A DNA stretch of 53,919 nt from assembly GCF_900120295.1 (NCBI RefSeq), contig NZ_LT635464.1, positions 1 to 53,919 on the forward strand, written 5' to 3'. The stretch comes from Blautia sp. Marseille-P3201T (GTDB taxonomy: Bacteria > Bacillota > Clostridia > Lachnospirales > Lachnospiraceae). The translations under genes were made by a program, and so were the position numbers. The notes under the pieces were generated by a model. It was given only the letters and a program-made list of their open reading frames with translations, did no database searches and was not told the DNA's origin. This document shows positions 29,442-50,110 of the stretch, piece after piece (the stretch's first letter is position 1; each line of letters opens with the position of its first letter).

Positions 29442-29936
29442 ATGAAAAACAAAAATGTGTCGTACTTAACACAGGCTGCAATGATTGCGGCAATCTACGT
29501 GGTGCTTACTATTGTCTTTGCGCCTATCAGCTTTGGAGAAATACAGGTTCGTATTGCCGAAATGCTGACAATTTTACCTATTTTTACACCGGCGGCAATT
29601 CCGGGATTGTTTGTAGGATGTCTGATTGGAAATATTACAGGCGGAGCAATCTTACCTGACATTATTTGCGGCAGCATCGCAACACTTATAGGAGCGGCAG
29701 GGACATACGCATTGAGAAATCACCACAGAGCATTGGCAGTTTTACCGCCTATTTTGGTAAATGCCTTGGTTGTTCCGTTTGTACTTCGCTATGCTTACGG
29801 TGTGGTACTTCCAATTCCATTTTTGGCTTTAACCGTAGGAATTGGGGAAATTATTTCCTGTGGAATACTGGGAAATGTTTTAGCGGCAGTTTTGAAAAAA
29901 TATAGCGGAAAGATTTTCGCATCACAAAGAGCATAA
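29442..29936 (+). CDS. queT: QueT-family queuosine precursor transporter
   Basis: This 164-residue membrane protein has about five helices and the QueT/COG4708 hallmarks (APISFGEIQVRIAEMLTILP, IPGLFVGCLIGNI). It is the substrate-binding component of an ECF-type importer for preQ1 or related queuosine precursors and would work with a shared energising module encoded elsewhere. AAAGGAG, part of the riboswitch tail, sets the start. No other queuosine gene is nearby. Confidence 0.9.
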   Translation: MKNKNVSYLTQAAMIAAIYVVLTIVFAPISFGEIQVRIAEMLTILPIFTPAAIPGLFVGCLIGNITGGAILPDIICGSIATLIGAAGTYALRNHHRALAVLPPILVNALVVPFVLRYAYGVVLPIPFLALTVGIGEIISCGILGNVLAAVLKKYSGKIFASQRA

Positions 29937-29951
29937 GATAAAAAATAAGGG

Positions 29952-29980
29952 GGTTCTGCAGACGCAGGATCTTCTTTTTT
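29952..29980 (+). terminator. Terminator of queT, invaded by a transposon in its U-tract
   Basis: GGTTCTGC pairs with GCAGGATC (two G-U pairs) around AGAC, followed by CTTCTTTTTT. The last eight bases of that tract (29973-29980) are the left copy of the target duplication of the composite element. Confidence 0.85.
29973..29980 (+). repeat. Target site duplication, left copy
   Basis: TCTTTTTT directly abuts the left terminal repeat at 29981 and is repeated exactly at 36762-36769 after the right terminal repeat. Eight bases is the duplication length of ISL3-family transposition. Confidence 0.75.
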
Positions 29981-30113
29981 GGTTCTATGTCAATAGTTGG
30001 GGCGGGATTTTCTGAATTCCGCTCCATAGTTGTATTTAGAGGTATTTTTTGTTTGCATGGAAAAAATCAAATTTATGACATGGCAAACAAACCTTCAAGC
30101 ACCCACCTTGTTT

Positions 30114-30626
30114 TTAATTGTCTGTTACAAGAAAAATACGAGTTCTGAGACGTTCAAATTTTCGAATTCCATAGGAAATACGTTTCAGAACTTTTATCTT
30201 ATTGTTAAATCCTTCTGTTGGTCCATTGGTGATATGTGGATATTTAAAAGCATGAAGGATTTCTTTTGCCCAGTTCCGGTAGGTTCTGGCACATTTTTCA
30301 AATTCCGCCAGACCGGAAGTTTCAGCTGCTTTTATCCAGTCAAAGAAATTTTTTCTCTGCCGGGAATATTTGTGGTCCTGACAGATATCATAAAATTTTT
30401 CTTTCAGGAAATGTGCCTTGTGCAGGTCGTCGTTATAAAGCAGCATAAGGTCACAGGCTTTTTTGTTTTCCTCATTTAACTTCTGGTATCTGGTAAGGAT
30501 GAGACGTTTACTCTTTTTGTAATACTTCCGCAGGGAAGAAGGCATGGAACGTTGCAGTCTTTTGCGGACACCTTCAATTGCCCATGTAACCTGCCGGATA
30601 AAATGATATTTGTCAATGATAATCTT
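30114..30626 (-). pseudogene. ISL3-family transposase, C-terminal part (truncated by an IS4-like element)
   Basis: On the minus strand this frame encodes about the last 170 residues of an ISL3-type transposase (KIIIDKYHFIRQVTWAIEG through KFERLRTRIFLVTDN). It is nearly identical to the copy at 35515-36603 where they overlap, and it retains the true C-terminus that the other copy lacks. Upstream sequence switches at 30627 into the end of the IS4-like element, and the missing N-terminal half is not found on the far side of that element, so a deletion followed the insertion. Confidence 0.85.
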
Positions 30627-32193
30627 CTTGAGTTTCCGCAGTTCTGTCCACAGAACTCCCAATCAGTCTTACTGATTATACACAATTTTTTAAAAATGCC
30701 CAAAATATAAGGAATTCTCTCTCTTTTTGATGTAAAATAAAATCACCACAAAATTATCCCACTAAACAAAAAAAGAAAGGATCCCTTATGGCTAATTTTA
30801 CATCAAAAACCTACCAAATGAAACGGGAAATTTTAACTTTTTCAAATAAATTTTCCGGAAAGCTTCCCAAACCGGAACGAAAGTTTATGGCTGACATGAA
30901 TTATGGTATGCTTGCTTCCAACAGTTGTCTGCTTACAGACATTGTTGACCGGTTACATGAGCATTCCAAAAAGATTAATAGCGTCGACCGCCTTTCCAGA
31001 CATTTATCAAAAGGCACACCAAAAGACGCTTTAAATGCTTACCTGACCAACATAAAAAAATGGTGTCCGGTTCATCCTGTCATTCATATCGATGACAGTG
31101 ACGTTGTAAAACCGGATGGTTATAAATTTGAGTCTCTCGGCTTGGTACGCGATGGTTCTGAGAGTACCTCTGCAAAAAATGTCTATAAGAAAGGGTATCA
31201 TGTCACAGAAGCCACTGTACTTACCAACAACAATCATCCAGTCAGTCTTTTTTCAGAAATTCATTCTTCAAAGGAAAAAAGCTTCACATCCACCAATGAC
31301 ATTACTTTTTCTGCTATGGAACGTGCAGCTGCATTATTTGAAAAAGCAACCTTTGTCATGGACCGGGGCTACGATGATAACAAGATGTTTCTCAAACTGG
31401 ACTCCATGGACCAGGAATATGTCATCCGCCTGACTGCAAAACGGAAGCTCCTATACCATAATAAATGGGTATTTGCCACGGAACTGCGTAACAGAAGGAA
31501 AGGCAAAGTAAAACTTCCCCTGTTCTACAAAGGGAAAAAGCACGAGGCTTATCTTTCCCATGTAAAAGTACAAATCACTGCATCCAGAAAAGATATTTAT
31601 TTAGTCCTTGTTTATGGCATTACGGATCACCCTATGATGCTTGCAACCAATAAAGAGATCAAATCGAAAAACGATGTGATAAAGGTTGCAAAGCTTTATT
31701 TTTCCAGATGGCGCATTGAAGAATATTTCCGCTGTAAAAAACAGATATTCCAATTTGAAAACTTCCGGGTACGGAAGCTCAAAGCAATCAATGCCTTAAA
31801 TTTCTATATCACTTTATGCATGGCATTCCTGGCTCATCTTTCCATGAAGCCGGAAACAAATATCCTTAAAGCTGCTATTATAAAGACAGCGGATCCAATA
31901 ACAGAAAGATATTTTCACTTTTATTGGCTCTGCTGTTTTTGCAATAGCAACTTCTATAAACATTTTTGTAGAGGTACTCTCAGACCATTACGTATCCAGC
32001 CAAAAGACTCAAATTTATAATCATCGGGTTTTTCAGCGACCTGGTCATCGATATGAATGACAGGGGAAGCCGAGTATCATTTCTTTACGTGGGTTAGATA
32101 AGCGTTCAAAGCACTTTTGGGTGCTTTTGGAAAGTTGTGTATAATCAGCAGGGATGAGTAGAAGTTCTGTGGATAGAACTGCGGAAACTCAAG
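30627..32193 (+). mobile_element. IS4-like insertion sequence with about 60-base terminal inverted repeats
   Basis: The left end (CTTGAGTTTCCGCAG...) and the inverted right end (32131-32193) agree for about 30 bases with one mismatch. Each contains an inner palindrome (AGTTCTGT/ACAGAACT) and a TGATTATACACAA block. It carries one transposase gene on the plus strand. No target duplication is seen, because the flanks differ (ISL3 sequence on the left, unrelated sequence on the right), which points to a later deletion at the right side. Confidence 0.8.
30788..32020 (+). pseudogene. IS4-family (DDE) transposase with a replaced C-terminus
   Basis: The first roughly 379 codons are a DDE transposase with HIDDSDVV (first D), TFVMDRGYDDN (second D) and the SRWRIEEYFRCKKQ segment with the catalytic E. 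From about 31925 to 32124 the DNA is the reverse complement of a diverged copy of the gene's own early part (similar to about 31013-31215). The last 31 residues of the frame are therefore antisense nonsense rather than the natural C-terminus. Loss of the C-terminal helices probably inactivates it. The start is at ATG 30788. Confidence 0.75.
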
Positions 32194-32203
32194 CAAGTTT
32201 TAC

Positions 32204-32232
32204 TTGACTCTCTTTTTCTATCTATATATAAT
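32204..32232 (+). promoter_or_regulatory. Promoter of the glycosyltransferase cassette
   Basis: TTGACT (32204-32209), a 17-base spacer and TATAAT (32227-32232) start 10 bases after the IS4-like element ends and lie about 45 bases before the ATG at 32275. Confidence 0.7.
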
Positions 32233-32274
32233 AATTTAGGAATTTTAATTTAAGAAAAAGGGGGGATAAGATTG

Positions 32275-34089
32275 ATGAGAGTAATAGCATTAGTTGGAGC
32301 AATTTTGGGATATTACTTTTATTATAATATGCGCTGGAAAAAGAAAAATGCATATTTTCCAATAATAGTTGTTTCGTGGATTACGTTTGTAATGTATATT
32401 GCAGGAGTTTTGGAATGCTTAAAGTGGGGAACTTTTAGTATTGTATTTATTGGTTGGTTTCTTCTTTTTGGAATATTTGTTATGACAGTGAAGAAGAAAA
32501 AACTGGATTTTTACATAAAAGCAGTTTTTAATTCTACTATTATATGTATGCTAATAGGTCTAATTTGGCTATGGGTAATAACAAGAGGAGTGGGACTTTC
32601 TCATTATGATGATTTTTCACATTGGTATCGTATTTGCAAAATGATGCATGTAGAAAATGCATATCCATCACAGCCAGATATGTATTTTCCATCTTATGTA
32701 CCAGGAACAGCTACATGGATATATTTTATTACTCGATTTATAAGTTTTTCAGCAGAAAACTGTTTATTTGCACAGGCAATTTTAATACTTTCTTGCTGTG
32801 CTGTTTTTTTAGGGGTAATTGGTGAAAAAATTGAAAAAAAATGTAAAGCATTAAGTTTTATTTATGTTTTTGTGGTATCAACTATTTTGTGCGCAATGAA
32901 TGTAAGCATTTATTCCTTACTGGTAGATACTGTTTTAGCACTTATTCCGTTAGCAGTTGTTGTTCTCATTTTTAATGAAAGAGACAGAATGGATATTAAG
33001 TTATATTTCGGTGTCATGTTAGGAGCTTGTTTTACAGCATTGGTGAAAACATCGGGACTTCTTTTAGTATTTTTTATTGCATTGGCATGGTTTATGAACG
33101 TTAATCAGAATAATGAGAGAAAAAATGTAAAAAAGAATATTATTATAAGTTTTTTATTAACTATTATTCCATTTTTATGTACAAGGCTATATATAAATCG
33201 CTCAGTAGTGATTTATGGAAATATTTCAGATACTTATCAAGGTGTGTCATTGAATAGATATTTAGGAATATTTTCAGGAAAAACGTTTCAGGACATAGTT
33301 GGAATATTTGGGAAATACATGTCTGAAATATTTAAAGGCAGTGGAATGATTTCGCAGGTAAAAGTAATTTGGATATGTTTAGCGTTTATGCTAATTTTTT
33401 ATTATGCTTTGAAATATTTTCATAGAAAAGAAACTGTATGGGTAAAGAATATTTTTCTATATGTTATAAGCTTTTTCGTTCTTTATAATATAGGATTATT
33501 ATTTACTTATATGTTTTCTATGGGAGAGAATGAGGCAAATTCTACTTATTTGGCATCGTTTTATAGATATATGGGAACTGCATCAATTTTTATTACAGGA
33601 ATAGTTGCATTCGTCATTCTGTATATAATTATGAATATTTCTGTTGTAAAGCAAAAAGTAATGTTAGCGGTTAGTTGTATTATGTTTGGAATTTTAGGAA
33701 TGTTTTATTTTGACACAGGATATGTTTGGGGACGTGATTTTGAATATCAGAAAGAAAATTATACAACAGACGCATGGGAGCTATGTCAGAAATATGTTCC
33801 AGAAAGCTGGGAATATAACGATTATAGTTATCTGGTTTTATGGAACTCAGATGATTTTCAAGATTCGGGTAAAATTTGGTGGCTCATGTCAGCATATTTA
33901 AGAAGTGTGCATATTGAAACATATAATTTGGAGGATTTGAAACAGAGTAATATTACAGAAGATCAAAAATCTAAGATGAAACAATGCGAGTATTTGGTAA
34001 CATTAGGAGATTTTTCGAGCTCCATTGATGTGATTAATGAATACGTATCAGTTAGAAATTATAAGCCAGGAATATCAGAGATAAATTAA
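32275..34089 (+). CDS. Polytopic membrane protein, probable GT-C-type glycosyltransferase
   Basis: This 604-residue protein has about 11-12 membrane helices. The first large extracytoplasmic loop has acidic/aromatic motifs (GVGLSHYDDFSHWYRI) of the kind seen in GT-C enzymes that use lipid-phosphate sugars, and a soluble C-terminal tail begins after the last helix (about residue 485). GGGGGG before ATG 32275 supports the start over TTG 32272. The partner gene 21 bases downstream encodes an undecaprenyl-phosphate-sugar synthase fused to a GtrA flippase. The likely role is to attach the flipped sugar to an extracellular polymer. No close family is recognised, so the enzyme class is inference from topology and neighbour. 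The DNA is visibly more A+T-rich than the flanking genes. Confidence 0.6.
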   Translation: MRVIALVGAILGYYFYYNMRWKKKNAYFPIIVVSWITFVMYIAGVLECLKWGTFSIVFIGWFLLFGIFVMTVKKKKLDFYIKAVFNSTIICMLIGLIWLWVITRGVGLSHYDDFSHWYRICKMMHVENAYPSQPDMYFPSYVPGTATWIYFITRFISFSAENCLFAQAILILSCCAVFLGVIGEKIEKKCKALSFIYVFVVSTILCAMNVSIYSLLVDTVLALIPLAVVVLIFNERDRMDIKLYFGVMLGACFTALVKTSGLLLVFFIALAWFMNVNQNNERKNVKKNIIISFLLTIIPFLCTRLYINRSVVIYGNISDTYQGVSLNRYLGIFSGKTFQDIVGIFGKYMSEIFKGSGMISQVKVIWICLAFMLIFYYALKYFHRKETVWVKNIFLYVISFFVLYNIGLLFTYMFSMGENEANSTYLASFYRYMGTASIFITGIVAFVILYIIMNISVVKQKVMLAVSCIMFGILGMFYFDTGYVWGRDFEYQKENYTTDAWELCQKYVPESWEYNDYSYLVLWNSDDFQDSGKIWWLMSAYLRSVHIETYNLEDLKQSNITEDQKSKMKQCEYLVTLGDFSSSIDVINEYVSVRNYKPGISEIN

Positions 34090-34110
34090 ATACAGGAGAA
34101 GTTTTTAAAT

Positions 34111-35184
34111 ATGAAAGAAATACCAATTATTATTCCGGCATATGAACCGGATGAAAGACTGATAAAATTATTAAAAGAATTTAGAGAAAAAAATGTTCGA
34201 GATGTTATTCTTGTAGATGATGGTAGTAGTGTAGAATATAAAGAAATTTTTCAACAAGCAAAACAGATATTGAGAGAGATTGATGGAATATTGCTAATTC
34301 ATGAATGTAATCAAGGTAAGGGAAGAGCTTTAAAAACAGCGTTTTCATATATTTTAGATAATTGTCCAGAGGCTATTGGAACAGTTACCGCTGATTCTGA
34401 TGGACAGCATACAATAGAATGTATTTCTTCTGTTTCAGATGAATTGTTGAAAAATCCGAATAAATTAATTTTAGGTGTTCGGAATTTTGAAGAAGAAAAT
34501 ATTCCATGGAAAAGTGAGTTTGGAAATAAAATAACAATGAAAGTACTCGGGTATGTATCAGGTATACATGTCAGTGATACGCAAACAGGATTAAGGGGAA
34601 TACCTCGCGGCTTTATGAAGGAACTTATAAATGTTGCAGGGGAGCGTTTTGAATTTGAAACAAGAATGCTCTTGGAAAGTGTTGGAAAATATTCCATTAA
34701 AGAAGTTCCAATTAAAACAATATATGATTCAAAAGAAAATCATCAAACACATTTTAGACCAATAAAAGATTCCTTAAAGATATATAAAATATTGGGAGCT
34801 AAATTTTTTAAATATATTTTTACATCGTTGTCTGCAAGTGTTCTGGATATTCTTATTTTTACAATCTGTTGTTATTTATTAAAAGAGGGCAATAGTGCAT
34901 CACAAATTGTAATTGCTACAATTACTGCAAGGTTTTTTTCTGCAACGTATAATTGTGCGATGAATTATAAAGTTGTTTTTAACAGCAATGAGAAAGTTTT
35001 AAGAGCAGTTTTAAAGTATATTTTTCTTGCAGTGATACAAATGAGTTTAAGTGCGGTTTTAGTGATTTTTGGTGTGAAAATTTTAGCTCCTATTTCTGAA
35101 GTTATCGTAAAAATTGTTGTAGATACAGTTTTATTTTTTATTAGTTTTTATATACAGCGAAAGTATGTTTTTAAAAAGCAGTAA
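34111..35184 (+). CDS. GT2 polyprenyl-phosphate glycosyltransferase fused to a GtrA flippase domain
   Basis: Residues 1-220 are a GT2 domain like dolichyl/undecaprenyl-phosphate glucosyl or mannosyl transferases: IPIIIPAYEPDERL, LVDDGSS, metal-binding DSDGQH (95-100) and the QTGLRGIPRGF acceptor segment. Residues 228-357 have four membrane helices of the GtrA family (FKYIFTSLSASVLDILIF through FYIQRKYVF), thought to flip the lipid-linked sugar. GtrB- and GtrA-like functions are thus in one chain. Together with the upstream membrane protein this forms a three-function glycan-modification set, like the Gtr systems that glucosylate O-antigen or teichoic acids. AGGAG precedes the start. Confidence 0.85.
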   Translation: MKEIPIIIPAYEPDERLIKLLKEFREKNVRDVILVDDGSSVEYKEIFQQAKQILREIDGILLIHECNQGKGRALKTAFSYILDNCPEAIGTVTADSDGQHTIECISSVSDELLKNPNKLILGVRNFEEENIPWKSEFGNKITMKVLGYVSGIHVSDTQTGLRGIPRGFMKELINVAGERFEFETRMLLESVGKYSIKEVPIKTIYDSKENHQTHFRPIKDSLKIYKILGAKFFKYIFTSLSASVLDILIFTICCYLLKEGNSASQIVIATITARFFSATYNCAMNYKVVFNSNEKVLRAVLKYIFLAVIQMSLSAVLVIFGVKILAPISEVIVKIVVDTVLFFISFYIQRKYVFKKQ

Positions 35185-35233
35185 TGGGATTTGAAGCAGA
35201 AAAAATAACTACTTTTATGCTATAATCTCATCT

Positions 35234-35262
35234 TTGACAGTTAAGAAAATGGGTGCTACAAT
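35234..35262 (+). promoter_or_regulatory. Orphan strong promoter between the cargo and the right ISL3 copy
   Basis: TTGACA (35234-35239), 17 bases and TACAAT (35257-35262) form a near-consensus promoter with no gene behind it before the convergent ISL3 copy. The downstream bases (TGTCATTAACTTAAGG) look like a leftover IS leader. 35185-35399 holds no coding sequence I can support. Confidence 0.5.
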
Positions 35263-35399
35263 CCTTGAAAACACTCAATGTCATTAACTTAAGGAAAAGA
35301 AAAAGATAGTTGTTTCATTTCTTGGTTTTAGAAATAACGAGAGTATGAAACTTTTTCTGTAAATAATGTTTTAGAAGGTCTTCTATGATAAAATGTTTT

Positions 35400-36761
35400 G
35401 GTTCTATGTCAATAGTTGGGGCGGGATTTCCTGAATTCGCTCCATAGCTGTATTTGGAGGTGTTTTTTTTGCTTGCATGGAAAAAATCAAATTTATGGCA
35501 TGGCAAACAAACCTTCAAGCACGTTTCAGAACTTTTATCTTATTGTTAAATCCTTCTGTTGGTTCATTGGTGATATGTGGATATTTAAAAGCATGAAGGA
35601 TTTCTTCTGCCCAGTTCCGGTAGGTTCTGGCACATTTTTCAAATTCCGCCAGACCGGAAGTCTCAGCTGCTTTTATCCAGTCAAAGAAATCTTTTCTCTG
35701 CCGGGAATATTTGTGGTCCTGACAGATATCATAAAATTTTTCTTTCAGGAAATGTGCCTTGCGCAGGTCGTCGTTATAAAGCAGCATAAGGTCACAGGTT
35801 TTTTTGTTTTCCTCATTTAACTTCTGGTATCTGGTAAGGATGAGACGTTTACTCTTTTTGTAATACTTCTGCAGGGAAGAAGGCATGGAACGCTGCAGTC
35901 TTTTGCGGACACCTTCAATTGCCCATGTAACCTGCCGGATAAAATGATATTTGTCAATGATAATCTTGGCATGGGGAAAATAAATTTTTGCCAGTTCCGT
36001 ATAAGGAGTCCACATGTCGCATACAAAATATTTTACACGATACCGTTCTGTTTTTGGGACAGAAGAAAAATAAACAGCCAGATGCCCCTGTGTCCGGTTG
36101 GGGAGGATATCCAAAATGCGGTGTTTTATGGGATCTGTCAAAATACACTGGTATTTACCGGTATCCGCATTTCCTTTGAATTCATCAATAGAAAGGACTT
36201 CGGGAAACCTCCTGCGGGAATAGGAAACCGTATCCAAAATCCGGTGAACGGTAGAAGGGGAAACATTGGCAGAGAGAGAAAACTCCTTAATACTTTGATT
36301 TTTATGCAGGGAGTCTGCAAGAAAAGCAGTCAGCCTGGAGGTACGCTGGAAATAGCGTGGTAAAAAAGAATACTTCTCATAAAAATGTTTCCCACAGCTG
36401 CAGGTATATCTTCTTTTTCTGAGCACAAGATAGCAATGTTTCAATTGGAGGGGAAGATCCTTGATTGTCTGGGAACGGTAATCATGGATTTTTTTTGTGG
36501 AAGCACCACAGTGGGGACAAATTTGTTGTGAGGGTTTGGTTTCGAGATAAATTTTAACAAAAGAGTCCGCATGAATAATTTTTTTTACAATTACCCCTTC
36601 CAAATTTAGTAATTGATTGATACAATGATTATGAATGGTTCATACCTCCTAGTGTCTGATAGTAATGTGTGGGTGCTGGGAGGTTTTTCTTTTATTTTAG
36701 CGCAAAAAATAAATGATGGGAATATGGAAATAAACCATACCCCAACATTTATTATAGAATC
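35400..36761 (-). mobile_element. ISL3-type insertion sequence, right copy
   Basis: It is bounded by GGTTCTATGTCAATAGTTGGGG at 35400-35421 and the inverted, diverged CCCCAACATTTATTATAG-containing end at 36740-36761. It carries one transposase gene on the minus strand. Relative to the left copy it lacks about 80 bases near the transposase stop. Bases 36604-36739 hold only its leader (ribosome site at 36650-36645) and no gene. Confidence 0.75.
35515..36603 (-). pseudogene. ISL3-family transposase, C-terminally deleted and lacking a normal start
   Basis: The 362-codon frame has the ISL3 zinc-finger region (CPHCGASTKKIHDYRSQ, then CSCGKHFYEKY), an HTH, and the DDE core (SIDEFKGNADTGKYQCILTD; CDMWTPYTELAKIYFPHA; EGFNNKIKVLKR). 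Compared with the left copy, a deletion removes the last 20 or so residues and a TGA arises at the junction. At the 5' end the best AGGAGG is followed by frame TIHNHCINQLLNLEGV with no ATG in register. A single lost base may have removed the original start, and only a TTG at 36603 remains. It is probably inactive. Confidence 0.8.
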
Positions 36762-36769
36762 TCTTTTTT
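36762..36769 (+). repeat. Target site duplication, right copy
   Basis: TCTTTTTT directly follows the right terminal repeat and equals 29973-29980. The sequence beyond it (TCGCTTCTTCC) would have followed the queT terminator tract before insertion. Confidence 0.75.
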
Positions 36770-36791: not shown

Positions 36792-36820
36792 TTGACATAC
36801 AATAGTCTGTATGCTAGAAT
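36792..36820 (+). promoter_or_regulatory. Promoter of the TPR/P-loop gene
   Basis: TTGACA (36792-36797), 17 bases and TAGAAT (36815-36820), about 100 bases before the start codon. Confidence 0.7.
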
Positions 36821-36919
36821 TAAATCAATTATGGAGTCTTATACCCTCAGCAAGAATTACAGATAAGAATACATATTTGAAACTATATACAAATCAATAA
36901 ATGTACAGAGGTGAATAAA

Positions 36920-39322
36920 TTGGATAAAAACGAGTACAGGGCAAAGTTGGAAGAAATCAGTCAGCTGGTTGATAAACAGGATTACAAGGGTGCCCTAAAA
37001 ATTGTAGATACCATTGATTGGCGTAGAGTGCGCAGTGCCAGAACTTTATGTATGGTAGGCGAGATATACGAAGCTAATAAAAGGTATGAAGATAGTCGAA
37101 AACTTCTGCTCCTTGCACATCAGAGAGCTCCTATTGGTAAAACTGTTATTTATAGATTAGTTGAGCTTTCTATTAAAATGGGTGAATTTGATGAGGCACT
37201 GAATTATTACAAGAAATTTGTGGAGATTTCTCCTAATGATAATAGTCGATATATTTTGAAGTATAAAATTTACAGGGCAAGACGTTCACCTATTGAGGAA
37301 CAGATTGAAATTCTTCAGGATTATAAGAGCAGAGAGTATACAGAAAGATGGGCTTATGAATTAGCTCGCCTTTATGCAAAAGCCGGTATGAAGGAAGCTT
37401 GTATAGAAGAATGTGATGATTTGATTTTGTGGTTTAGTGAAGGGAAATATGTTACAAAAGCCATGGAATTGAAGATGAAATTTGTACCGTTAACTGCCTC
37501 ACAGCAGGAAAGCTACAATAAGGCCAAAGGCATTCCAGTAAGAACATCTGTAGTGTCCAAACCAGCAGAACCACAGGTAAAAGAACCTGCAAATCAGCAG
37601 GATAAAGAGATAGAAGAGATTTTAAACAGTATTAAATTAGGTGATTTTGCACCGGAAACTCCATCTGAAACAGTGGTACAGCAGCCGGAGGATCTTCCGG
37701 AGCGAGTGGCTCAGGGATTAAGAGATGTGTTCCAGCCTAAAATGACGGCTGCCGAGGAGATGGAAACAGCAGCAACAAGAGAGCCATCCCAGGCCAGCGA
37801 AGAGCAGGGATATGTAATTAAGGATTTAGAGCCGGAAGATATGACAAAAGGCAGCGGATTTAAGCCGTTCCATATTGGAAATGCCATGACTATGGAAGTA
37901 AAAGCCGAGGCGCCAAAGTCAGAAATGCTTTCTTCTGATGGGGCGAAAGCGGAAGCTTTTAAGACAGATACAAAAGGTGTGGAATTTGATTTAGAAGCAC
38001 TTTTGGCAGAAACAGCAAATGAGCTTGCACAGGCAGTTGCTGAAGAAACAACAGGAGAAGCAGTAGAGGAAGTTGTTGAAGAAGCAACAGAAGAAGCGGT
38101 AGAGGAAGCCGTTGAAGAAACAACAGAAGAAGTCGTTGAAGAGGCAACAGAAGAAGTTGCAGAGGAAGCTGCTGAAGAGACAGTAGAGGAAGCAGCAGAA
38201 AATATTTTGCCTGCACCGGCAGCGGCAAGAGCAGCTATGATTGCAGAAAATTTAAGCGCTGTTTTTGAAGAAAAGGCAAGTGAAATTGAAGCTCTAGCAG
38301 CAGAGAATACAGAAGAAGAGCCTGAACAGGTTTCTGCGGAAGCAGAAGAAGTGATGGAAGAAGTTCCGGAGGGAGTTTTTGGAGCAGACGTAGAAGTATC
38401 TGAAGAGGCAACCAGAGAAATACCTGTGGAAGAAGTGAAAGAAGCTGCATTGGAATCACAGAAGGAAGAAAGTCATATAAAACGTGTGGCAGCTTCTGCG
38501 GTAGATGAAACGCAGAAATCTTCTGCATTTCAGACGGCAGTAGAAAGTTTGATGCGCCATCATCTTACAGAAGAAGAACACAGAAGATTGTTTACATATT
38601 TCGCACCTATTCCAGGGATGACACAGCAGATTAATGAAGCATTAGACACTGCGCAGGAGTCAGCGTGTGCTAAGACATCTCAGGCTGGAAATATTATTGT
38701 TACAGGACGAGAGGGTTCTGGAAAAACAAGACTTTCTGAAGGCCTTATTAAAGCCCTTTGCAAGGAACGTCAGATGGAAGGGGCAAAAGTTGCTTTTATC
38801 ACAGCTCAGGAATTGAATAAAAAAGACCCTATAGCAGTTGTAGGAAAATTATCAGGAGGATTTCTGGTAGTGGAAAATGCAGGGGAATTAGATGGTGATG
38901 TAGTTGAAGATATGTCAAAGGCTATGGAATTTAAGACAAATCGTTTGACTGTAATTTTAGAGGATTTAAAGCCGGGCATTCGCAGCTTAGAAGAAAAATA
39001 TCCGGAATTTATTAAAAAATTTGACTCTCGTATTGTAATACCTGTTTTTACCAATGATGAATTAGTATCCTTTGCAAAGACTTATGCCAAAGAATTAGGA
39101 TATAAAATTGATGATATGGCAGTTCTTGCGCTGTATACTCTTATCGGAGATAATCAGAACGAAGAAAACCCGGTTGCAATTGGCATGGTAAGAGAGATGA
39201 TGGACGAAGCTATCAAAAGAGCTTCTAAAAAAGGGCGCAGGGTAGGAAAGAAAGTAGGAAAACGCCATTTGGATGATGAAAGCGGCAGAATTATGCTGTA
39301 TGAAAAAGATTTTGATATTTAG
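36920..39322 (+). CDS. TPR protein with acidic Glu/Ala repeat region and C-terminal P-loop ATPase-like domain
   Basis: About 800 residues. Residues 5-190 contain TPR-like helical pairs (GALKIVDTIDWRRV, EDSRKLLLLAHQRAP, FDEALNYYKKFVEISP). Residues 190-530 are low-complexity and highly acidic, with many VEE/TEE/AEE units at about 375-435. Residues 560-800 have a Walker A (TGREGSGKTRLS), a VVENAGEL segment in the Walker B position and a basic tail, resembling AAA-type ATPases. TTG 36920 is preferred since AGAGGTG lies just before it; GTG 36911 overlaps that site. It is followed 15 bases later by rsmA, so it may be co-transcribed. The function is unknown; scaffolding plus ATP use is suggested only by its parts. 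Confidence 0.7.
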   Translation: MDKNEYRAKLEEISQLVDKQDYKGALKIVDTIDWRRVRSARTLCMVGEIYEANKRYEDSRKLLLLAHQRAPIGKTVIYRLVELSIKMGEFDEALNYYKKFVEISPNDNSRYILKYKIYRARRSPIEEQIEILQDYKSREYTERWAYELARLYAKAGMKEACIEECDDLILWFSEGKYVTKAMELKMKFVPLTASQQESYNKAKGIPVRTSVVSKPAEPQVKEPANQQDKEIEEILNSIKLGDFAPETPSETVVQQPEDLPERVAQGLRDVFQPKMTAAEEMETAATREPSQASEEQGYVIKDLEPEDMTKGSGFKPFHIGNAMTMEVKAEAPKSEMLSSDGAKAEAFKTDTKGVEFDLEALLAETANELAQAVAEETTGEAVEEVVEEATEEAVEEAVEETTEEVVEEATEEVAEEAAEETVEEAAENILPAPAAARAAMIAENLSAVFEEKASEIEALAAENTEEEPEQVSAEAEEVMEEVPEGVFGADVEVSEEATREIPVEEVKEAALESQKEESHIKRVAASAVDETQKSSAFQTAVESLMRHHLTEEEHRRLFTYFAPIPGMTQQINEALDTAQESACAKTSQAGNIIVTGREGSGKTRLSEGLIKALCKERQMEGAKVAFITAQELNKKDPIAVVGKLSGGFLVVENAGELDGDVVEDMSKAMEFKTNRLTVILEDLKPGIRSLEEKYPEFIKKFDSRIVIPVFTNDELVSFAKTYAKELGYKIDDMAVLALYTLIGDNQNEENPVAIGMVREMMDEAIKRASKKGRRVGKKVGKRHLDDESGRIMLYEKDFDI

Positions 39323-50010: not shown

Positions 50011-50110
50011 CTCTTATTCAGAGTGATGGAGATACATAGGATCTGTGAAGTCACGGCAACCCCGCATGGCGGAAGGTGCCAACCTGAGCGAATAATCGAA
50101 CAATAAGAGG
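50011..50110 (+). promoter_or_regulatory. SAM-I (S-box) riboswitch upstream of metK
   Basis: The P1 arms CTCTTATT (50011) and AATAAGAG (50102-50109) enclose the S-box hallmarks: CAGAGTGATGGAG, CTGTGAAGTCACGGCAACC, and AAGGTGCCAACCTGAGC before the final AATAATCGAACAATAAGAG. It senses S-adenosylmethionine. The terminator at 50132-50158 lies at the right distance for premature termination when SAM is plentiful, so MetK, which makes SAM, is feedback-controlled. Confidence 0.94.

Follow-up and report, generated by a model that had tools for sequence, protein, structure and literature searches.

Insertion sequences (IS) of the ISL3 family have been found together with passenger genes in several arrangements, three of which are close to the locus described here. 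In Enterococcus faecium, liaSR is part of a putative composite bounded by ISL3 copies, a structure that its authors called new for ISL3 in 2022 (PMC9484755). An ISL3-like transposon of enterococcal plasmids carries fosB and has AT-rich 8-bp duplications (PMC5559704). Again in E. faecium, DNA that had entered an rRNA-operon terminator has an ISL3 element at one of its ends and an 8-bp duplication (PMC11702846). The present locus is found in a stretch of 53,919 nucleotides from Blautia sp. Marseille-P3201T, a member of the family Lachnospiraceae (contig NZ_LT635464.1, positions 1 to 53,919; called the window below), where two ISL3 copies enclose a two-gene cassette that probably serves surface glycosylation.

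The window and the liaSR composite are alike in having two identically oriented ISL3 copies around cell-envelope genes. The authors of the liaSR study called for an examination of target duplications and favored recombination (PMC9484755), whereas the window shows both a target duplication and, in a relative, the uninterrupted site. The fosB transposon is alike in that an ISL3 transposase moves a passenger with an 8-bp duplication, but its passenger lies inside one element (PMC5559704) and the cargo of the window lies between two. In the literature as examined in part, no ISL3-bounded composite with both a spanning duplication and an uninterrupted site was found. As a composite, the unit departs only modestly from what is known, and the most interesting result of the analysis is the apparent targeting of transcription terminators by the ISL3 lineage that bounds it.

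An ISL3-bounded unit between queT and a TPR gene

The insertion spans positions 29981 to 36761 (6,781 bp) and separates queT, a QueT transporter gene (29442-29936, forward strand; Pfam QueT, E 5e-48), from a gene for a TPR protein (36911-39322, forward strand; Pfam TPR). Its left border is the left end of one ISL3 copy, ISL3-A, and its right border is the right end of a second copy, ISL3-B, both on the reverse strand. By copy comparison, ISL3-A (29981-30626) is a left fragment that corresponds to positions 1-647 of a 1,441-bp element and keeps the outer left end intact. ISL3-B (35400-36761) retains both ends and a transposase open reading frame (ORF; 35515-36603); about 80 bp are missing from its interior, which changes the C-terminus of the transposase. 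The proteins of both copies match ISL3 transposase by Pfam; that of ISL3-B is above the cut-off for DDE_Tnp_ISL3, Zn_ribbon_ISL3 and HTH_Tnp_ISL3, and scores 297 bits against NCBIfam NF033550 (cut-off 180).

The exact 8-bp sequence TCTTTTTT stands directly outside both outer ends, at 29973-29980 on the left and 36762-36769 on the right. The inner end of ISL3-B at 35400 is preceded by AATGTTTT, and the two flanks of ISL3-B agree at only 5 of 8 positions. The passenger DNA is thus enclosed by two IS copies with one duplication around the whole and none at the inner end, the latter statement referring to ISL3-B, since the inner end of ISL3-A has been lost. An earlier note, made from the sequence alone, had described a composite with these outer ends, this duplication and an unmatched inner end, and its coordinates proved correct to within one base. 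Its description of two flanking ISL3 copies in the same orientation holds for family and orientation, the left copy being a fragment of only 646 bp; it overlooked the IS4-like debris that cuts ISL3-A and the IS256 end in which ISL3-B sits (both described below).

An 8-bp duplication is a property of this ISL3 lineage. A complete copy elsewhere in the same genome (G000:C10:624390-625830; 1,441 bp, with a 394-codon open frame from stop to stop) is bordered on both sides by ATAATAAA, and another genome (G009) holds five copies, about 65% identical, each with its own exact 8-bp duplication (GTTTTTTT, TTTGTTTT, TTTATTCT, CTTTTTTT and TTTTTAAT). Among 20 copies with both ends readable, the duplication is perfect (8 of 8) in 12 and not in the other 8. 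Inverted terminal repeats and an 8-bp target duplication, as expected of the ISL3 family, are both present.

Relatives in a sample of one genome per species provide a view of the site without the insertion. In the nearest relative (G008), the queT block is 96% identical and lies 25 bases from the TPR-gene block. When this site was compared with the joined flanks of the window under one scoring scheme, a single TCTTTTTT at the join scored 170, two copies scored 163 and a join lacking it scored 156. The empty site by which the composite proposal could be checked exists, and its best fit to a single TCTTTTTT counters the concern that a duplication lying in a T-run reflects chance similarity. In a second relative (G003) the two blocks are 73 bases apart. 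Overall, 12 of the 19 other genomes in the genus carry both blocks on a single contig, at 13 places (two of them in G014) and with gaps of 25-2,019 bases; the longer gaps of G004, G007 and G011 contain other DNA. None of the ISL3 matches from the search of the genus falls at these 13 places, and in G008 and G003, where the flanks lie closest to each other, the cassette is absent from this site. The promoter-like site of the TPR gene (36792-36820, forward strand; a consensus match only), which is conserved in sequence in G008 and G003, was left undisturbed by the insertion.

Insertion at intrinsic terminators

The earlier note had placed the insertion in the T-tract of the queT terminator, and transposition into this tract is well supported. 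The terminator-like site (29947-29980, forward strand), identified by a scan as a consensus match only, consists of a hairpin with a 13-pair stem (29947-29976) and a T-tract, and it stands intact upstream of the insert. Since the duplication of 8 bp consists of the T-tract, the insertion left the queT terminator with both its hairpin and its T-run.

The same arrangement recurs in other members of the lineage. A set of 73 distinct left flanks from a moderate number of genomes was assembled from one list of 68 left-end places (seven of them left out), from further loci and from three flanks in the Blautia genome itself; identical 40-base flanks were counted once, and flanks that were shorter than 60 bases or contained N were dropped. 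A hairpin was called strong when it was -13 kcal/mol or stronger and ended 4 to 12 bases before the element. Such a hairpin lies just upstream of the element in 29 of the 73 flanks, including 26 of the 45 that are T-rich (at least 5 T in the last 8 bases). Control sites in the same upstream sequence, which overlap one another, gave 62 of 3,000 when T-rich and 50 of 3,000 when of any composition, and intergenic T-rich sites gave 168 of 2,500. The threshold had been chosen after the list was seen, and for this reason the analysis was extended by a rule-based stem test, shifted sites, the intergenic control and a second IS. Under the separate stem rule, which includes a T-tract, 25 of 73 flanks gave a hit at the insertion point; a shift of 12 or 20 bases upstream left 3 and 5 of 73, respectively, and shifts of 30 to 150 bases left 0 or 1 of 72. 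The flanks of an IS4-like element, put through the same procedure, yielded 0 of 52 at that hairpin strength (best, -9.0). In the Blautia genome, the queT site is among the 29; neither the ISL3-B flank nor that of the complete copy belongs to them.

The insertion of an IS with a metabolic gene at transcription terminators has been described for IS1272 and TnSha1, with IS1272 cutting at the hairpin without a target duplication and entering one terminator in both orientations (PMC4923244). Unlike IS1272, the ISL3 lineage makes an 8-bp duplication at the T-tract that follows the hairpin, and it does so largely in one orientation: among the 20 copies with both ends readable, strong hairpins number 8 on the left side and 1 on the right, and among the 12 with a perfect duplication they number 5 and 1. 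An open-access literature search with partial coverage revealed no report of a terminator preference for ISL3. The parts considered of the paper on the rRNA-operon terminator contain no general claim on terminator insertion by ISL3 (PMC11702846), and those of two further enterococcal papers (PMC4438569, PMC10266640) and of an insertion-sequence survey (PMC9208149) contain no statement on such a preference.

A model that we consider fairly probable is that this lineage recognizes intrinsic terminators, that is, a hairpin followed by a T-tract, as a preferred target, mostly in one orientation, and that the duplication copies the T-tract so that the host terminator survives. Composites would in this way deliver cargo operons into harmless intergenic slots, and the cassette in the window would be one such delivery. 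The other 44 of the 73 flanks have no such hairpin.

Several other arrangements of ISL3 ends were noted. The left end of the element itself contains a terminator-like palindrome (29998-30026 in the window), which is also visible in a solitary end fragment (L158). G008 and the Blautia genome (at C10:406741 and C10:781627) also have solitary left ends, some 55-100 bases long. At locus L160, around G003:C26:46796, ISL3-like left and right ends have no transposase between them and, by eye, resemble a miniature derivative; at L227 (G169:C6:178942-181319), two tandem ISL3 transposase genes in the same orientation lie about 236 bases apart, possibly a nested or compound arrangement.

A cassette probably involved in surface glycosylation

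Multi-component transmembrane glycosylation systems are known from Gram-positive bacteria, for example GtlA-GtcA-GtlB and CsbB-GtcA-YfhO, and combine a lipid-sugar synthase of the GT-A type (GT, glycosyltransferase), a GtrA flippase and a GT-C transferase (PMC8035078). The cargo of the window resembles these systems in its apparent parts, and differs from them in consisting of two genes, in the fusion of the first two parts and in lying inside a transposon-like unit. The cassette is preceded by a promoter-like site (TTGACT-17-TATAAT; 32204-32232, forward strand; a consensus match only) that lies just outside an IS remnant, called Y below.

The first gene (32272-34089, forward strand) encodes a probable GT-C-type membrane glycosyltransferase of 605 aa, for which there is no Pfam or NCBIfam match. 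Its AlphaFold model has a pLDDT of 78.8 and a pTM of 0.82. When the model was compared by Foldseek, the first 15 rows were oligosaccharyltransferase complexes, DPY19, AftA, ALG12 and PMT, which we take to be enzymes of the GT-C class, with probabilities of 0.97-1.00, TM scores of 0.26-0.41 and E values from 0.0014 to 0.11, none of which reaches 0.001; the rows further down were mostly unrelated membrane proteins with low probability. When the protein is aligned with eight homologues, 17 columns are invariant, including D113, H117 and W118. We read the predicted structure as support for a GT-C fold, though not as proof of it. The second gene (34111-35184, forward strand) encodes a 357-aa protein with the Pfam domains Glycos_transf_2 and GtrA_DPMS_TM, so that the GT2 synthase and the GtrA flippase characteristic of transmembrane glycosylation are joined in one protein. 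The genome encodes another GT2-GtrA protein in contig C6.

Homologues of the GT-C protein were found in 10 of 298 other genomes of the family, the best with 36% identity; two of the ten are broken by stops and near the threshold. At the eight loci that were aligned, a GT2-GtrA gene adjoins in three (G297, G175 and G298), and in G297 the pair also adjoins a gene for an ABC transporter ATPase. Of the remaining five homologues, three are beside a GT2-type plus PilZ gene, one beside a PilZ-only ORF and one beside a radical-SAM gene. The GT-C family is thus not always part of a GtrA-type system, and the gene in the window is of the GtrA-paired kind; for the role proposed for the cargo, the five loci without a GT2-GtrA neighbor count on the negative side.

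The domains, the predicted fold and the neighbors of some homologues make it probable that the cargo is a compact transmembrane glycosylation system acting at the surface. The GT2 domain would load a sugar on undecaprenyl phosphate, the GtrA domain would flip it, and the GT-C protein would add it to a surface polymer. The earlier note had spoken of surface-glycan variation delivered by a transposon; the glycosylation part of that claim fits the domains, the fold and the three of eight homologue neighborhoods, and variation among strains would be a further, conjectural step.

The earlier note had also proposed that the same cassette be sought with the same outer ends at other loci, and none was found. 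There is no near-identical DNA match to the cassette in 396 other genomes of the family (two candidates scored per genome), and the unit is accordingly seen at a single site among the 397, the Blautia genome included. The best non-self matches among those listed are 64-67% identical and mostly in the GT2 part, with short IS256-end and other stretches in addition. A scan of genome contigs with GT-C peptide patterns gave 9 stretches that matched a pattern, none of them confirmed; a phage search with the cassette gave no match, and a plasmid search gave two partial matches of 25-27% identity in lactobacilli.

Insertion sequence remnants within the unit

The stretch between ISL3-A and the cargo (30627-32193) is IS4-like and consists of two remnants. 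The first, X (30627-31929, forward strand; ORF 30788-32020, DDE_Tnp_1), lacks its right end and is a 92% match over 1,307 bases to a copy elsewhere in the genome (G000:C10:829402-830708). The second, Y (31955-32193, reverse strand), was recognized by comparison with the window itself and with other copies; it represents a second IS4-like element, whose left end survives in inverted orientation, with its end at 32193 and an internal deletion of its own. IS4-like copies in C10 and C8 have the same inverted repeat at both ends and, by eye, 9-bp bordering repeats (AAATAATAG and ACTCATGTT). Since the bases outside X and Y are unlike (GATAATCTT versus CAAGTTTTA), X and Y together are not one simple insertion. 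Probably, X inserted in ISL3-A and Y immediately upstream of the cargo promoter, after which a deletion fused the two remnants with loss of the inner part of ISL3-A, either before or after the unit moved.

On the other side of the cargo, the bases directly before ISL3-B (35326-35399, forward strand) match the left end of IS256-type elements in many genomes of the family, several of them at contig ends, and the transposase behind this end in another genome's copy is of the Mutator family. The element is interrupted by ISL3-B, and the sequence that follows ISL3-B at 36762 is the queT site, not IS256. With an IS256 end before it and the queT site after it, ISL3-B has apparently left its old right neighbor behind. 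Judged from these junctions, ISL3-B appears to have inserted at another place into an IS256 element, which was then either complete or a mere fragment, and to have come here with the cargo; the donor site was probably rich in IS. A repeated sequence at 35263-35296 (forward strand), with 91-94% matches in other contexts in other genomes, is possibly the end of yet another element.

The IS4-like element seemingly has a target preference of its own, for promoters. Among 52 distinct flanks, 20 have a sigma70-like promoter (at least 9 of 12 matches) close beyond the end of the IS, and in 19 of these 20 the -35 box starts at the 11th or 12th base; six shifted sites gave 0 or 1 of 51-52, and shuffles gave 2.5%. 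In the window, Y lies directly upstream of the cargo promoter-like site at 32204. Outside the unit, the window also contains a SAM riboswitch (50011-50109; Rfam RF00162, 73.5 bits).

Movement of the unit

The simplest account, and in our view a reasonably likely one, is that the unit moved as a compound transposon. Two directly repeated ISL3 copies would have come to flank the two-gene glycosylation cassette at an IS-rich donor site, and the ISL3 transposase would have used the outer left end of ISL3-A and the outer right end of ISL3-B to move all that lay between. The unit would have landed in the T-tract of the queT terminator and duplicated 8 bp (TCTTTTTT), the inner part of ISL3-A being removed, before or after this event, by the IS4-like insertions and deletion outlined above. 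The complete ISL3 copy elsewhere in the genome could supply transposase in trans. The finding that terminator T-tracts are a frequent target of the lineage (29 of 73 flanks) counts in support of composite transposition. The earlier note held that the unit had moved as a whole; this is still the simplest reading, and it is unproven, as a lone ISL3 followed by recombination with a circle gives the same outer duplication.

Several observations weigh against composite transposition. The sequence TCTTTTTT is the left flank in 3 of the 73 distinct flanks of the lineage, the window's included, so that the 8 letters alone are weaker evidence and the argument depends on the uninterrupted site. By the time ISL3-B entered it, the IS256 piece may have been no more than a fragment. 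The searches of family genomes, contigs, phages and plasmids yielded neither a second location of the cassette nor a donor locus. The present mobility of the unit appears doubtful, because ISL3-A is a fragment and ISL3-B, besides its transposase deletion, has a changed right end (GATTCT instead of the GGTTCT of the complete copy). Recombination into a resident ISL3 would leave the same anatomy.

In such a two-step pathway, a lone ISL3 would have inserted in the queT terminator with its duplication of TCTTTTTT, and a RecA crossover would then have joined it to a circle carrying an ISL3 copy and the cassette, with the same outer duplication and the same direct ISL3 repeats as the outcome. Circular intermediates have been reported for an ISL3-like transposon (PMC5559704), and the authors who described the liaSR structure thought that it had more plausibly spread by homologous recombination than by transposition (PMC9484755). 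The crossover predicts that the right end of ISL3-B stems from the resident copy, and hence from the lineage of ISL3-A. The divergence from the complete copy does not favor this: ISL3-A differs at 11 of 566 shared left columns and ISL3-B at 5 of 793 right bp (Fisher P about 0.04), and over the 566 shared columns the private changes number 9 in ISL3-A, 5 in ISL3-B and 2 in the complete copy. The test is weak, however: the left part of ISL3-B itself has 7 differences in 566 columns, which could mean only that the right part is the better conserved one, and a crossover near the right end would escape detection. The two-step pathway is disfavored only weakly, and we regard it as a possible but doubtful origin of the unit.

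Another proposal is that ISL3-B alone mobilized neighboring DNA by means of a remote solitary left end, with ISL3-A already a fragment at the time of the move. ISL3-A now supplies only the outer end, solitary ISL3 left ends exist in the genus, and the E. faecium insertion with one ISL3 at one end and an 8-bp duplication has a mechanism that was called uncharacterized (PMC11702846). The unlike bases outside X and Y fit instead a later truncation of a longer ISL3-A, whether before or after the move, and mobilization by ISL3-B alone seems improbable. Finally, it is improbable that independent ISL3 insertions on either side of a pre-existing cassette matched in 8 bp through a shared preference for T-rich sites (at least 5 T in 8 in 45 of 73 flanks, with TCTTTTTT itself in 3), since G008 and G003 lack the cassette here, G008 aligns better with one T-tract than with two, and an independent insertion would have given ISL3-B a duplication of its own, which its flanks do not show.

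Implications for the family

If the terminator preference is real, it would help to explain how ISL3 elements could spread through this family while doing their hosts little harm; it would also provide a simple rule for predicting their sites. Cargo operons could be parked between genes, and surface-sugar genes carried by composites could thereby change the cell-surface sugars of the host.

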